A stretch of 64,000 nt of DNA, from assembly GCF_002973535.1 (NCBI RefSeq), contig NZ_PVEP01000002.1, forward strand, positions 310,001 through 374,000. Direction: 5' to 3'. Shown in pieces: positions 36,363 through 55,937 of this stretch. This DNA is from Albidovulum denitrificans. GTDB lineage: Bacteria; Pseudomonadota; Alphaproteobacteria; Rhodobacterales; Rhodobacteraceae. The notes under the pieces were generated by a model, which saw only the letters and a program-made list of their open reading frames with translations, did no database searches and had not been told where the DNA came from. Position 1 is the first letter of the stretch; the number at the start of each line of letters is the position of its first letter. Both the position numbers and the translations under genes were made by a program.

Positions 36363-37175
36363 ATGGCGGTCGGCATATTCGATTCGGGGCTTGGCGGGCT
36401 GACGGTCTATGACGCGGTCGCCAGGGCGCTGCCCGATCTGGCCTTCGTCTATTACGGCGACAACGCCCACGCGCCCTACGGTGTGCGCGATGCCGACGAC
36501 ATCTTCAACCTGACCTGCGCCGGGGTGGAGCGTCTTTGGGCCGAAGGCTGCGATCTGGTGATCCTTGCCTGCAACACCGCCGCCGCCGTGGCGCTGAAAC
36601 GGATGCAGGAGACGTGGGTCCCGGCCGACAAGCGCGTCCTTGGCGTCTTCGTTCCGATGATCGAGGCGCTGACCGAACGGCAATGGGGCGACAACTCCCC
36701 CCCGCGCGAAGTGGCGGTGAAACATGTCGCGCTTTTTGCCACGCCCGCCACCGTCGCCAGCCGCGCCTTTCAGCGCGAGCTTGCCTTCCGCGCCATCGGG
36801 GTCGATGTCGAGGCGCAGCCCTGTGGCGGCGTCGTCGATGCGATCGAGGACGGGGATGAAATATTGGCCGAAGCGCTGGTGCGATCCCATGTCGAGGCGC
36901 TGAAACGCCGGATGCCAAAGCCCGAGGCGGCGATCCTGGGCTGCACCCACTACCCGCTGATGGAATCCACCTTCGAGGATGCGCTGGGCGCGGGCGTGAC
37001 CGTCTATTCGCAGGCAAACCTCGTGGCCGAAAGCCTGAAGGACTACCTTGTCCGGCGGCCGGACTTCATCGGCTCCGGCACGACATCGCGCTTCCTGACC
37101 ACCGGCGACCCGGCGCGGGTCAGCAGCAAGGCCACGCAATTCCTGCGCCGCAAGATCGCGTTCGAGGCGGCCTGA
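36363..37175 (+). CDS. murI: Glutamate racemase
   Basis: 270 residues from ATG 36363 behind GGAGGGGG; a longer frame from 36258 has no family similarity at its start. Motifs: [26 protein letters not shown], catalytic Cys in LACNTAAAV (about residue 70) and the second catalytic Cys in [12 protein letters not shown] (about 195). Makes D-glutamate for peptidoglycan. Its stop codon is followed after 3 bp by the 94-bp convergent-junction element. Confidence 0.96.
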
Positions 37176-37178
37176 GCG

Positions 37179-37272
37179 CTATAACATTTCGGGTTTGCCC
37201 TGACGCAGAATTTGAACTTATTTCGTTCGAATTCAGATACTTGCTTTCTCAACGCAAACCCGAAACGCGTTA
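37179..37272 (+). repeat. 94-bp convergent-junction palindromic element, copy 1
   Basis: Begins CTATAACATTTCGGGTTTGC and ends GCAAACCCGAAACGCGTTA, imperfect terminal inverted repeats, with an inner hairpin GAATTTGAAC / GTTCGAATTC. It starts 3 bp after the murI stop and its last three bases (TTA, read leftward TAA) are the ybaK stop codon. Same length as the copies at 47337-47430 and 55059-55152; six mismatches to the 47 kb copy by eye. Confidence 0.9.
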
Positions 37273-37740
37273 TTCCGTGAAATCGGCCCGTTCCGCCCCG
37301 GTCGCGGCCAGAAGGGCGGCGGGGGCGGCGGCGAAGACGTGGCGCGGCGTCCCGGCGGCGGCCCAGACCACGTCGAAATCCAGAAGACGCGGATCGTAAT
37401 AGCTGCGGATCGGGGTCAGGTGACCAAGGGGCGCCACGCCGCCGATGGCAAATCCCGTCTCGGCCCGGATCAGGTCGGCATCGGCCTTGCCCAGCGGCTG
37501 ACCGGCGACGGCGCTGGCCTTTTCCGCGCTGACCCGGTTGCCGCCCGCGGTCAGGAAGAGGACGACATGGCCGCTTTCCTCGCCCCGGAAGATGATCGAC
37601 TTCATGATCTGATCGACCTCGCACCGCGCGGCGCGGGCGGCATCTTCGGCCGTGCGGGTGCCCTCAGTCATCTCAAGGATCTCTGTCTCAAGCCCCGCCG
37701 CCTCGATGGCGGCTTTGACGCGCTTCAGGCTCTTGCTCAT
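37270..37740 (-). CDS. YbaK/prolyl-tRNA editing-domain protein
   Basis: 156 residues from ATG 37740 (KSLKRVKAAIEAAG); the longer frame to 37803 adds an unrelated tail. The YbaK fold is seen in MKSIIFRGEESGHVVLFLTAG, then the conserved Lys-containing loop NRVSAEKASAVAG, LIRAETGFAIGGVAPLGH and YYDPRLLDFDVVWAAAGTP. Such free-standing editing proteins deacylate mischarged tRNA (Cys- or Ala-tRNA-Pro). The family has several substrate classes, so specificity is open. Its TAA stop codon is formed by the end of the 94-bp repeat. Confidence 0.92.
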   Translation of the reverse strand: MSKSLKRVKAAIEAAGLETEILEMTEGTRTAEDAARAARCEVDQIMKSIIFRGEESGHVVLFLTAGGNRVSAEKASAVAGQPLGKADADLIRAETGFAIGGVAPLGHLTPIRSYYDPRLLDFDVVWAAAGTPRHVFAAAPAALLAATGAERADFTE

Positions 37741-37858
37741 CGCCCCTGTCCTTTCCCTTGTCCCGGCGGGGCGCAGGTAGCCATGGGGCGCGGCGAACTG
37801 CAAGGGCCGGGCGCGCGTGGGCCGTTGACGCCCGCCCGCGCGTCGCTACTGTCGCGCC

Positions 37859-46482: not shown

Positions 46483-47334
46483 ATGTCCGGGCAGATCATC
46501 TTCGTCATCTGGCGCGAAAGCATCGAGGCGCTTCTGGTCATCGGCATCCTGTCAAGCTGGCTCCGGCGTGAGGCGGCGACAGGGGCGGTCGGCGCGCGGG
46601 CCGGGCGTTACCTTTGGGGCGGTGTCGGCGCCGGGCTTGGCGTGGCGCTGGTCTTCGCGGCGATGGTGCTGGGCTTTGCCGAGATCATGCCGCCAGTCCT
46701 GCGCGATGACATGATGACGGCGATGGTCTTCCTTGCCGCCGGGCTGATCGTGCAGATGGTCCTCTGGATGCGCCGCCACGCCCGGACGCTGAAGCGCGAT
46801 CTGGAATGGGGGCTGAGCGATGCGGCGCGGTCGGGCCATTGGTGGACCGTCTTCATCCTCGCCGCGATTGCCGTGGCGCGCGAGGGCAGCGAAACCGTGG
46901 TCTTCCTTTATGGCATGCTGGCGGGGGCGGCGGGGACCAGCCTTTTGGGCGTCCTTGGCGCCATCGCAGCCGGCTTCGCCATCGCCTTCGCGACCTATGC
47001 GCTGATGCAGCTTGGCAGCCGCCTTCTGCCTTGGGGCCGCTTCTTCCGCATATCCGAGGTCATGCTGCTGCTTCTGGGCTGTGCGCTGTTCACCACCGGG
47101 CTGGAAAAGCTGGTCGGGGCGGGCATCCTGCCGTTCCACGCGCCGCTTTGGGACATGGGTGGCATCCTTGACGACAGCGGCCCGGTGGGCGGTGTGATCG
47201 CCTCCCTGACCGGCTACCGCGCCGCGCCGGACTGGGTGACGCTGGCGGGCTGGGTCGGTTACTGGGCCTTCGTGACGGCGGCGCTGGCCTTCGTGACGCG
47301 GCGTACCCGGCTTGCGGTGCAGCGGGCGGGCTGA
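46483..47334 (+). CDS. FTR1-family high-affinity iron permease
   Basis: 283 residues, seven hydrophobic helices. The two REXXE motifs needed for iron transport are present: WRESIEALLVIG at the start and AVAREGSETVVFLYG about residue 145. The second half has LPWGRFFRISEVMLLLLGC and ends TRRTRLAVQRAG. Inner-membrane import of ferric or ferrous iron, fed by the cupredoxin protein encoded 18 bp upstream. No EfeB-like peroxidase gene is present. ATG 46483 has the G-run as its ribosome site. The stop codon is followed after 2 bp by the 94-bp repeat. Confidence 0.93.
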   Translation: MSGQIIFVIWRESIEALLVIGILSSWLRREAATGAVGARAGRYLWGGVGAGLGVALVFAAMVLGFAEIMPPVLRDDMMTAMVFLAAGLIVQMVLWMRRHARTLKRDLEWGLSDAARSGHWWTVFILAAIAVAREGSETVVFLYGMLAGAAGTSLLGVLGAIAAGFAIAFATYALMQLGSRLLPWGRFFRISEVMLLLLGCALFTTGLEKLVGAGILPFHAPLWDMGGILDDSGPVGGVIASLTGYRAAPDWVTLAGWVGYWAFVTAALAFVTRRTRLAVQRAG

Positions 47335-47336
47335 TC

Positions 47337-47430
47337 CTATAGCATTTCGGGTTTGCACTGACTCAGAATTCGAACTTATTTCGTTCGAATTCTGATACTT
47401 GCTTTCTCAACGCAAACCCGAAACGCTTTA
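47337..47430 (+). repeat. 94-bp convergent-junction palindromic element, copy 2
   Basis: CTATAGCATTTCGGGTTTGC ... GCAAACCCGAAACGCTTTA, with inner perfect hairpin GAATTCGAAC / GTTCGAATTC. It lies entirely between FTR1 (stop 2 bp away) and the M48 protease gene, whose stop codon TAA is the terminal TTA of the element read leftward. Confidence 0.92.
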
Positions 47431-48129
47431 ACGGATGGGCGTGACGTTCACGCCCCACTTCGCCTCGTTCCGCTCAATCGCCGCGATACGTTCGGCGGCC
47501 TTGGGATGGCTCAAGAGCCAGGCGGGCTGACCAACCCCCGCCGCCCCCGTCAACTTCTCCAGCTTGCGGAACAGCGACTTCTGCGGCCCGGTCCCGATCC
47601 CCGCCTTGATGAGCAGGGCAGAGGCCCATTCATCGGCCTCATATTCATCCCGGCGGCTGAGACGCGCGGCCAGAAGCGAGGTGACAAGCCCGGCAAGGAA
47701 GATGCCGACAAACGGGATCAGCCGCCCGAGGAGTGAGGCCAGCGCCACATAGACCGCGTTCTGGCCGGAAAAGTCGATCATCCGCCGCCGGGCATGACCA
47801 TGGGCGATATGGCCCAGCTCATGCGCCACGACGCTGGCCATTTCCGGCCCCGTCACCGTGCCTTCGCGGTATTTCCGCACGAACCCCTCGGTCAGGAAGA
47901 TCCGCCCGTCCGGCGCCGCCAGCCCGTTCACGGGGGCGATGGCGAAGACCCGGACCGGCACATGGGGCAGGTCCAGCGCGCGGGCCAGCCGGTCGATCTC
48001 GGCCTTCAGGCCGGGATCGTCCAGGGGCCGCGACTGCGCGTCCAGCATCTTCTTCGTCCGCCAGGCGGAGAAGTGATACATCAGGACCGCGTAGAGAATG
48101 GCCAGGAGGATCGGGGTCAGCTTCAGCAT
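47428..48129 (-). CDS. M48-family zinc metalloprotease (HtpX-like)
   Basis: 233 residues from ATG 48129 (LKLTPILLAILYAVLMYHF, membrane anchor); the frame extends to 48192 but the added part is arginine-rich and looks unreal, and the chosen start has a weak ribosome site. The active-site motif HELGHIAHGHARRR (HEXXH) and the downstream Glu in RRDEYEADEWA are intact. One more hydrophobic segment is seen (LIPFVGIFLAGLVTSLLAA). It would act on membrane proteins at the cytoplasmic face. Last gene of the leftward MoxR/VWA run. Confidence 0.88.
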   Translation of the reverse strand: MLKLTPILLAILYAVLMYHFSAWRTKKMLDAQSRPLDDPGLKAEIDRLARALDLPHVPVRVFAIAPVNGLAAPDGRIFLTEGFVRKYREGTVTGPEMASVVAHELGHIAHGHARRRMIDFSGQNAVYVALASLLGRLIPFVGIFLAGLVTSLLAARLSRRDEYEADEWASALLIKAGIGTGPQKSLFRKLEKLTGAAGVGQPAWLLSHPKAAERIAAIERNEAKWGVNVTPIR

Positions 48130-53882: not shown

Positions 53883-55061
53883 ATGCTGAACGACCGCAGG
53901 GTGACGGTTCTCGGCGCCGGGGTCGCGGGGCTGACCGTGGCGCGGGCGCTGGCGCTGAAGGGCGCGCATGTCACCGTGCTGGAACAGGCGCCCGAGATAC
54001 GGGAGGTCGGCGCAGGTCTGCAAATCTCGCCCAACGGCGCGCGGGTCCTGTCCGCCCTGGGCCTTGGCGCGGCGCTGGACGGGATCGGCATCCCGGCAGA
54101 GCGGGTGGACCTGATCGACGGCGAAGGCGGCGGGCGTGTCGTCTCGCTTGACCTTCGCTATGGCGGGCAGGGGGGGCATTTCCGCTTCGTCCACCGCGCC
54201 GACCTGATCTCCATCCTGGCCGAGGCGGCGCGCGCGGCGGGGGCCGAAATCCGGCTTCTGCAGCAGGTCTCCGACGTGACGCTGGGTCAGGGCGCGCCGC
54301 AGCTTCACATGGCCAACGGGGCCGAGGTGGAGGCGGATATCCTGATCGGCGCCGACGGGCTGCATTCGAAGGTGCGTCAGGCCCTGAACGGGCAGGTCGC
54401 GCCCTTCTTCACCGGCCAGGTCGCCTGGCGCGCGACGATCCCGGCCGAGCCGGGCATCGCCCCCGTGGCGCGGGTCTTCATGGGGCCGGGGCGGCATTTG
54501 GTGACCTATCCGCTGCGCGGCGGCAGCCTGCGCAACATCGTCGCGGTCGAGGAGCGGCGCAAATGGGTCGAGGAAAGCTGGAACCTGACCGACGACCCGC
54601 TGGCCCTGCGCATCGCGTTCGAGAATTTCGTGCCGGAACTGCGCGGCTGGCTCGACCGGATCGAGCGGCCAAATCTCTGGGGTCTCTTCCGCCACCCGGT
54701 GGCGGAGAACTGGCACGGCCATGGCGCGGCGATCCTGGGCGATGCCGCCCACCCGACGCTGCCCTTCCTCGCGCAGGGCGCCAACATGGCGCTTGAAGAT
54801 GCCTGGGTGCTGGCCGCCTGCCTGGCGGAACGCGCCCCCGATCAGGCCTTCGCCGCCTATCAGGCGCAGCGTCGCCCGCGTTGCGCGCGCATCGTCGATG
54901 CCGCCACCCGCAACGCCCGCAACTACCACCTGTCGGGCCTGACGCGCGAGGTCGCGCATATGGGCCTGCGCCTTGCCAACCGGCTGGCGCCGAAATCCAT
55001 GCTGCGCCGGTTTGACTGGCTTTACCGCCACGACGTGACCGGCGGGCAGGGCCGGGGCTAA
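53883..55061 (+). CDS. FAD-dependent aromatic monooxygenase (salicylate/3-hydroxybenzoate hydroxylase type)
   Basis: 392 residues. FAD-binding Rossmann motif VTVLGAGVAGLTVARALAL, then the GADGLHSKVR (DG) motif near residue 158 and the ribityl-binding GDAAHPTLPFLAQGANMALED (in parts) near 285: the three hallmarks of class A flavoprotein hydroxylases. NAD(P)H-dependent hydroxylation of an aromatic acid is expected; the substrate cannot be set. No aromatic-degradation genes adjoin it. ATG 53883 follows a TTTCGGGGGATGAC site. Its TAA stop codon is the first three bases of a 94-bp repeat. Confidence 0.88.
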   Translation: MLNDRRVTVLGAGVAGLTVARALALKGAHVTVLEQAPEIREVGAGLQISPNGARVLSALGLGAALDGIGIPAERVDLIDGEGGGRVVSLDLRYGGQGGHFRFVHRADLISILAEAARAAGAEIRLLQQVSDVTLGQGAPQLHMANGAEVEADILIGADGLHSKVRQALNGQVAPFFTGQVAWRATIPAEPGIAPVARVFMGPGRHLVTYPLRGGSLRNIVAVEERRKWVEESWNLTDDPLALRIAFENFVPELRGWLDRIERPNLWGLFRHPVAENWHGHGAAILGDAAHPTLPFLAQGANMALEDAWVLAACLAERAPDQAFAAYQAQRRPRCARIVDAATRNARNYHLSGLTREVAHMGLRLANRLAPKSMLRRFDWLYRHDVTGGQGRG

Positions 55062-55152
55062 AGCGTTTCGGGTTTTCGTTGAGAAGGTAAGTGTCAGAAT
55101 TCGAACGAAACAAGTTCGAATTATGATTCGGTGTACACCCGAAATGCTATAG
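55059..55152 (-). repeat. 94-bp convergent-junction palindromic element, copy 3 (inverted)
   Basis: Reverse complement of copies 1 and 2: starts TAAAGCGTTTCGGGTTTTCG, ends ACACCCGAAATGCTATAG, inner arms AATTCGAAC / GTTCGAATT. The TAA at its start is the stop codon of the FAD monooxygenase; its other end is 5 bp from the xthA stop. About ten mismatches to copy 2 by eye. Confidence 0.9.
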
Positions 55153-55157
55153 AGCGA

Positions 55158-55937
55158 TCAGGCCGCCAGCTCGATCCAGACCGGAACGTGGTCCGATGGC
55201 TTGTCGCGCCCCCGCACCCCCTTGTCGATCCCCGTGCCGGTCAGCAGGTCCGCCGCCTGCGGGCTTAGCAGCAGGTGGTCGATACGGATGCCGTTGTTCT
55301 TCTCCCAGGCGCCCGCCTGATAGTCCCAGAAGGTGTAGACACCAGGGCGCGGATCGGTGGCGCGGATCGCCTCGGTAAAGCCGAGGTTCAGGATCCGGCG
55401 AAACGCCGCGCGGCTGTCAGGCAGGAACAGCGCATCCTCGCGCCAGACCTCGGGCCGTGCCGCATCCTCGGCCTGCGGGATGACGTTGTAATCGCCCGCC
55501 ATCACCACCGGCATCTCACTTTCCAGAAGCGCCCCGGCGCGCGCCTTCATCCGCGCCATCCACGACAGCTTGTAATCGTATTTCGGCCCCGGCGCGGGGT
55601 TGCCGTTGGGCAGGTAAAGCCCGCAAAGCCGCACCGCCGTCGCGCCCACCACCGTCGCCTCGATCCAGCGCGCCTGCTCGTCGGCATCGTCGCCGGGCAG
55701 GCCGCGCATCACATCTTCAAGCGGCAGCTTCGACAGGATCGCGACGCCGTTGAACCCCTTCTGGCCATGGGTCTCGACGTTATAGCCCCGCTCCTCGAAG
55801 ATCTCGCGCGGAAAGCCCTCATCGACCGACTTGATCTCCTGCAAGAGGACCACGTCGGGCGCGGCCTCCTCCAGCCAGGCGGGCAAGGCTTCGATCCGCG
55901 CCTTGATGCCGTTGATGTTGAACGTGGCGATTTTCAT
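55158..55937 (-). CDS. xthA: Exodeoxyribonuclease III (AP endonuclease)
   Basis: 259 residues from ATG 55937 behind CAGGGGGCGCG; the longer open frame to 56240 is unrelated. Family motifs: IATFNINGIKARI, VVLLQEIKSVDEGFP (catalytic Glu), LYLPNGNP, VMAGDYNVIPQ (metal-binding Asp/Asn), and the terminal IRIDHLLLSPQAADL ... SDHVPVWIEL with catalytic Asp-His. Cleaves at abasic sites and removes nucleotides 3' to 5'. Convergent with the FAD monooxygenase across a 94-bp repeat. Confidence 0.96.
   Translation of the reverse strand: MKIATFNINGIKARIEALPAWLEEAAPDVVLLQEIKSVDEGFPREIFEERGYNVETHGQKGFNGVAILSKLPLEDVMRGLPGDDADEQARWIEATVVGATAVRLCGLYLPNGNPAPGPKYDYKLSWMARMKARAGALLESEMPVVMAGDYNVIPQAEDAARPEVWREDALFLPDSRAAFRRILNLGFTEAIRATDPRPGVYTFWDYQAGAWEKNNGIRIDHLLLSPQAADLLTGTGIDKGVRGRDKPSDHVPVWIELAA

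Follow-up and report, generated by a model that had tools for sequence, protein, structure and literature searches.

A CIR-like palindromic repeat of Albidovulum denitrificans at Y-TA-R sites and at the stop codons of convergent genes

Described TA-ended repeats and three copies of a 94-bp element

The Caulobacter CcrM-associated intergenic repeats (CIRs) of alphaproteobacteria are ~110 bp long, have TA termini and a conserved GANTC, which is the CcrM site, and are absent inside genes (PMC2229807). They consist of two arms and a linker without pairing of their 5' and 3' ends, and a review marks their target duplication '?' (PMC2229807). ERIC, RUP and Correia elements, which belong to other hosts, are small TA-ended MITEs having terminal inverted repeats and a target duplication (PMC2229807) and are present in tens to hundreds of copies (PMC10969869, PMC2229807). 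RUP, for which an IS630 partner was proposed (PMC2229807), is over-represented between convergent genes (PMC3049150), and half of the counted SPRITE repeats of Streptococcus pneumoniae (15/30) are likewise between convergent genes, near 3' ends. SPRITE is terminator-like with AAAA/TTTT ends and its authors suggest co-option as terminators (PMC3049150). Stop-codon regeneration is not described for ERIC, RUP or Correia elements in the available parts of three sources (PMC2229807, PMC3049150, PMC10969869), and these and the available part of PMC1590033 hold no report of it for any such repeat, which is no proof of its absence.

The window, by which we mean the whole 64,000-nucleotide stretch of A. 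denitrificans DNA that was analysed, contains three copies of a 94-bp palindromic element, the third inverted, as a first-pass annotation had reported. Copy 1 (37179..37272, plus strand; locus L120) begins 3 bp after the TGA of an Asp/Glu racemase-family (MurI-type) gene (36363..37175, plus strand) and provides the TAA (37272-37270, minus strand) of a tRNA-editing-domain (YbaK-type) gene (37270..37803, minus strand); its TA ends are at 37180-37181 (left) and 37271-37272 (right). We take these two genes to be murI and ybaK. Copy 2 (47337..47430, plus strand; L080) begins 2 bp after the TGA of an FTR1 family permease gene (46483..47334, plus strand) and provides the TAA (47430-47428, minus strand) of an M48 peptidase gene (47428..48129, minus strand). 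Copy 3 (55059..55152, minus strand; L061) is separated by 5 bp from the TGA of an exo/endonuclease-family gene (55158..55937, minus strand) and provides the TAA (55059-55061, plus strand) of a FAD monooxygenase-type gene (FAD_binding_3; 53883..55061, plus strand). The six flanking genes all have Pfam matches (Asp_Glu_race, tRNA_edit, FTR1, Peptidase_M48, FAD_binding_3 and Exo_endo_phos). The annotation's reading of both ends agrees with the open reading frames, which stop just outside the left end (37175, 47334 and, on the minus strand, 55158) and, in all three copies, within the right end (37270, 47428 and 55061). At the position of a GANTC copy 1 has GACGC, copy 2 GACTC (47360-47364) and copy 3 GAATC (55125-55129, minus strand). 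Within 3 mismatches the central 25-mer has three matches in the window, with 0 expected.

The palindromic fold that had been noticed is strong: no window copy was equalled by any of its 200 shuffles, whichever strand was folded (z -4.6 to -12.5). The length of 94 bp needs a small correction, as it includes one C of the target; 91 of the 99 copies analysed below measure 93 bp when the body is taken together with its TA at each end. TA termini (at both ends in most copies), a conserved GANTC, the length class and an intergenic location are features shared with CIRs. In contrast, the window element folds end to end around an inner hairpin, whereas CIRs are two-armed and lack end pairing (PMC2229807). 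Hence we would call it CIR-like rather than a CIR, on the basis of the published CIR description. The annotation's statement that it knew of no described element with the stop-codon feature may be too strong given the similarity of CIRs, although the available text of the review draws no connection between CIRs and adjacent stop codons (PMC2229807). Unlike SPRITE, the element is without T-run ends.

Copies across the genome and their target site

With up to 3 mismatches allowed, the central 25-mer has at least 103 matches throughout the genome of the window (G000), 52 of them forward and 51 reverse, and the reversed control has 0. One hundred places were taken with their flanks and the truncated L113 was dropped to give the 99 full-length copies of the detailed set; eight further full-length places are outside it. 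The truncated copy (L113/L176; G000:C1 near 1172491) comprises approximately positions 1-72 and runs into other sequence near a contig end. As in a MITE, the copies are non-coding, small (93-95 bp) and bear terminal inverted repeats, the end arms being paired in 92.5% of cells. They are also A+T-rich relative to the host, as MITEs are, with a GC content of 42.5% against 66.3% in the window; mean divergence is 10.4% (86 columns), and 30 of the 99 have a neighbour copy within 2.4%. Copies also occur in clusters (two 56 bp apart at L068, three within 1.4 kb at L087 and two within ~1.2 kb at L097), and one copy (L089; G000:C6:12887-12981) has its inner hairpin loop in the opposite orientation to the outer arms, as though recombination between the arms of the centre had turned it round.

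A GANTC is present in 84 of the 99 copies. In 82 of them its position is the same, and there the N is A (44 copies), C (36) or T (2); the background is 44 sites in the 64 kb of the window. A connection of CcrM methylation at this site with mobility would be speculative.

Aligned copies have TA at the left end (T 90/99, A 91/99) and at the right end (T 91/99, A 91/99); the base outside the left TA is C or T in 97 copies and that outside the right TA is A or G in 88. A Y-TA-R target, with insertion at the TA such that TA is left on both sides, is well supported. The flank pairs were C-G (36), C-A (28), T-G (17), C-T (8), T-A (5), C-C (3), A-G (1) and G-G (1), and a strictly palindromic target (only CTAG or TTAA) was rejected because the left and right flank bases have no positive link. 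Some copies have CA, TG, TT or TC in place of TA, at one end only. Duplication of TA cannot be told apart from an element that carries its own TA. Three copies (L096, L118 and L128) are at CCTCAG rather than at YTAR, and both flanks of L118 can be read as TC, a hint of a 2-bp duplication that follows the target.

We compared these sites with G014, which together with G010 is the closest other genome of the genus as judged by two proteins. Neither has an element match. About 0.8 Mb of G014 was fetched, and orthologs were accepted at ≥60% identity (observed 72-95%) with alignment near the C-terminus. Both orthologs were within 400 bp of one another at five junctions (L061, L124, L125, L097 and L105). 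At three of these, L061 (copy 3), L124 and L125, a single CA in G014 stands against TA..TA here (alignment by eye, with indels of 1-2 bases), which would correspond to the target-site duplication of a MITE. The G014 alignment is ambiguous at L097, and the pair of orthologs at L105 is separated by 337 bp.

Thirteen genes that end in the right end of a copy have a G014 ortholog, and nine of these end at the same codon, two differ by one codon, one by 3 and one by 5. The tRNA_edit ortholog ends GAA-TAG-CGC, the nine bases predicted for the site of copy 1 before insertion; the FAD_binding_3 ortholog (copy 3) stops at the identical codon, there a TGA, and the M48 peptidase gene (copy 2) is 3 codons longer than its ortholog by tail alignment. 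The G014 stops at the 13 genes are TGA in 9 and TAG in 4, so that TAG is not the rule there. We count the copy 1 site and the shared gene ends in favour of the insertion model, and the prevalence of TGA and the two orthologs that differ by 3 and 5 codons against it.

Gene context, stop codons and competing explanations

The gene calls are those of a home-made finder, for which the window and the fetched loci were used to train a three-periodic Markov model. The copies are at convergent (60), tandem (33) and divergent (5) junctions, with no left gene called at one; a cruder count by codon usage (50, 38 and 11 of 99 in the same order) was superseded by these calls. No called gene spans a copy (0/99), and in three cases (L068, L087 and L122) a called gene starts inside the element. 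The location between convergent genes seen in the window extends to the genome as a whole: 60 of 99 copies are at convergent junctions, and among the 207 junctions that lack the element only 26 are convergent (odds ratio 10.7, p 1e-17). The stop-codon pattern likewise did not vanish with more copies: in 66 of 99 the right end supplies the neighbouring gene with its stop (TAA 55, TGA 6, TAG 5), and one end or the other serves a gene in this way or in frame in 70. The left end is in frame with the left gene in 17 copies, being itself the stop in 8 and adding seven codons up to an internal TGA in 9. Both ends serve in 13 copies, 29 are outside stops and 39 are outside convergent junctions. Ten proteins encoded beside five of the 13 double-stop copies all have Pfam matches at 1e-8 or better, the families including LpxB, tRNA_Me_trans, EamA and Mur_ligase_C. 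Nine unrelated proteins end in an element-encoded C-terminal tail, YSISGLH or a close variant (L073, L128, L131, L133, L134, L135, L137, L142 and L150). A gene for a protein with a Tle1-like phospholipase domain (L105:1543-2733, minus strand) ends in the left end of a copy.

The target motif accounts for much of this pattern. In the 207 element-free junctions YTAR sites are at stops and non-stops in ratios of 11/2 (convergent), 10/23 (tandem) and 0/41 (divergent), and the corresponding ratios for the copies are 53/7, 16/17 and 0/5, with one more at a stop without a left gene. The stop share of each junction class thus roughly follows YTAR availability, and does so closely in convergent spacers, where the match between 53/60 and 11/13 means that no separate preference for stops is needed. 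The earlier proposal of a unit that targets gene ends therefore holds only in part, the stop share in convergent spacers being that of the YTAR background. YTAR availability leaves the bias among junction classes unexplained, and this calls for either targeting or purging at promoters and in operons. Convergent stops with a four-base overlap invariably form a YTAR; such spacers make up 13 of 58 reconstructed convergent spacers versus 4 of 26 element-free ones, and the median reconstructed spacer is 6 bp (58 copies) versus 25 bp in the 26 element-free spacers.

The two ends of the element are not used alike. At single-stop sites the right, TAA-giving end faces the gene in 53 copies and the left end in 4 (p 6e-12). 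The left end is a stop in 8 of the 17 copies in which it serves the left gene versus 5 of the 82 others (p 1e-4), and at double-stop sites it is TAA or TAG instead of TAT in 7 of 13. The right-end stop is kept in 66 of 66 serving copies versus 24 of 33 others, a difference that is partly true by definition. We infer from the 53:4 ratio and the left-end stops that selection keeps the stop, although the ratio could instead come from directional insertion.

Our preferred explanation, which we consider probable, is that the element is a non-autonomous, MITE-like mobile element resembling the CIR repeats, that it encounters stop codons through YTAR and that selection keeps its TAA end. The MITE-like option of the first-pass annotation is supported by the dispersal of ~100 copies over both strands, by their YTAR flanks and the TA at each side, by sites in a relative that lack the element and by patchy spread in the genus. 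Following insertion at the TA, the sequence of events may be as follows. This genome is GC-rich, and nearly all YTAR sites in its short convergent spacers are TAG or TAA stops; because four-base-overlapping convergent stops are always YTAR, insertions there fall into one or both stop codons. The right end has an A after the TA and thus turns TAG or TAA into TAA, so that the gene keeps a stop, whereas the left end starts with T and adds the seven codons of YSISGLH before a TGA. Given that one end keeps the stop and the other extends the protein, copies having the right end towards the gene would be those retained by selection. Purging of copies at promoters, inside genes or in operons would then leave the convergent bias. 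The stop-codon feature is due largely to the YTAR target.

The mobilising enzyme is probably supplied in trans. In the genome of the window, the only one searched for it, DDE_3 was not found, and an IS630-type source such as that proposed for RUP was rejected on this ground; Y1_Tnp (PF01797) gave 0 matches, so that no mobiliser of the DDE_3 or Y1 family was detected in that genome. The absence of Y1 also bears on the idea that these are REP/REPIN-type repeats moved by a RAYT (Y1) transposase. In favour of this, the repeats are palindromic, intergenic and present in ~100 copies, and relatives in 10 genomes among the matches listed have their ends repeated inside in inverted order. However, Y1_Tnp is missing from 25 of the 26 genomes searched and from 11 of 12 element-bearing genomes, the exception (G369) having one short match with an internal stop, and this origin is most improbable.

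It is unlikely, though less so, that the preference for gene ends lies in the mobilising machinery, through collisions of convergent transcription or a terminator-associated DNA structure, for instance, with YTAR being secondary. The numbers of copies relative to background YTAR sites (60/13 convergent, 33/33 tandem, 5/41 divergent) and the short reconstructed spacers are those expected of such targeting, but purifying selection at promoters and operons predicts the same ranking, and the convergent stop share equals the YTAR background. More doubtful still is a selected 3'-end module that includes the stop codon and whose hairpin would terminate or insulate convergent transcription or shield the 3' ends of mRNAs. 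The strong folds, the 60 convergent copies and the full retention of right-end stops (in part definitional) speak for such a module, as do two terminator-like matches that overlap elements, one of them the inner hairpin of copy 2 with its T-rich tail. These, however, are 2 of 13 such matches in the region, where shuffles give 13.0, and the outer ends of the three window copies have no U-run. Compensatory change among copies is weak (21 cells, of which a single pair contributes 13, versus 13.9 in shuffles), so that an RNA function argued from covariation was rejected, and G-U pairs (90) versus C-A (76) indicate little strand preference. The window has 0 Rfam matches at the gathering score. Since G010 and G014 are without a match, the element is not needed at these junctions. 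A bidirectional intrinsic terminator would have a GC-rich stem followed by a U-run on both strands, and the element has no such run at either outer end; it is not a classical intrinsic terminator, and the terminator role offered as the annotation's other option is not supported.

If the MITE-like explanation is correct, there is a concrete reason for small repeats at gene ends, namely that the target motif coincides with stops and the element end restores the stop. The pattern would then be explained without a new targeting rule inside convergent spacers, leaving the convergent bias and the mobiliser to be accounted for, and a target site and duplication would be supplied for repeats with CIR-like features, a point that the review leaves open (PMC2229807). 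Gene finders and evolutionary studies should expect unrelated proteins of such genomes to have a C-terminal tail (YSISGLH) in common. A bolder version, which we hold tentatively and which may or may not prove right, is that these are Rhodobacteraceae-wide mobile repeats whose ends have evolved as portable stop codons, with stops as a safe harbour. Were this so, TA plus A would give TAA and insertion into one stop or two overlapping convergent stops would leave near-native protein lengths; spread of the element could rewrite TAG to TAA at convergent junctions and equip gene ends with a hairpin and a site for CcrM methylation.

Relatives in the genus and the family

The element is patchily distributed in the genus, being found in 10 of 22 genomes, that of the window included, with many copies in G013 and G020. 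We examined 22 copies of G020 and 27 of G013 out of 76 and 114 model matches, in which the palindrome was possibly counted on both strands. The right end serves a stop in 7 (G020) and 8 (G013) copies and the left end is in the same frame in 2 and 4 (the script's left count for G013, 8, includes other frames), giving either end at a stop in 9 and 10 (19/49). Convergent copies number 17 of 49, and one copy in each genome was flagged inside a called gene. The stop-codon pattern thus persists in these genomes but is weaker. GANTC is at the conserved position in 17 of 22 (G020) and 18 of 27 (G013) copies. End motifs with a non-element continuation exceed the reversed control in G013 (23 versus 13), G020 (31 versus 17) and G019 (38 versus 23) and may represent copies in decay or the termini of some longer element; in the genome of the window they are at control level (33 versus 36).

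Related repeats with the same ends are present in other genera of the Rhodobacteraceae. A covariance model built from the 99 copies, with 10 candidates scored per genome, detected relatives in 17 of 394 family genomes (16 of 393 genera), and the pattern TAAAGCGTTT-N66-96-AAAYGCTWTA matched 19 of 394 (18 of 393 genera), the reversed control being 0 in every row. A strict pattern of the element's own form matched 1 of 295 family genomes, that of the window. The element had no match in plasmid or phage records, and none of 80 family loci contained it by nhmmer at E 0.01, a search that would miss divergent relatives. GANTC is present somewhere in 16 of 26 correctly read elements of other genera. 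At 27 distinct loci of other genera the frame set by the boundary TA runs on for ≥120 codons without interruption at 19 of the 54 ends, which belong to 14 loci, compared with 7 of 108 for the other two frames; this count was made by hand, two loci were shifted by one base, and a few of these ends have TAT, not a stop, as their boundary codon.

The relatives have two layouts. The arms co-vary between genera (e.g., CGGG/CCCG, CGCG/CGCG and CCAG/CTGG). In the first layout (93-117 bp, mostly 93-106) end-to-end arms surround an inner hairpin. In the second (114-116 bp, in 10 genomes among the matches listed) each end is repeated inside in inverted order, a layout that suggests the two arms and linker of CIRs; when four of these relatives were folded, one gave two arms and three gave end-to-end pairing. 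One genome of another genus (G264) has both layouts, with elements of 105-106 bp and 115 bp.
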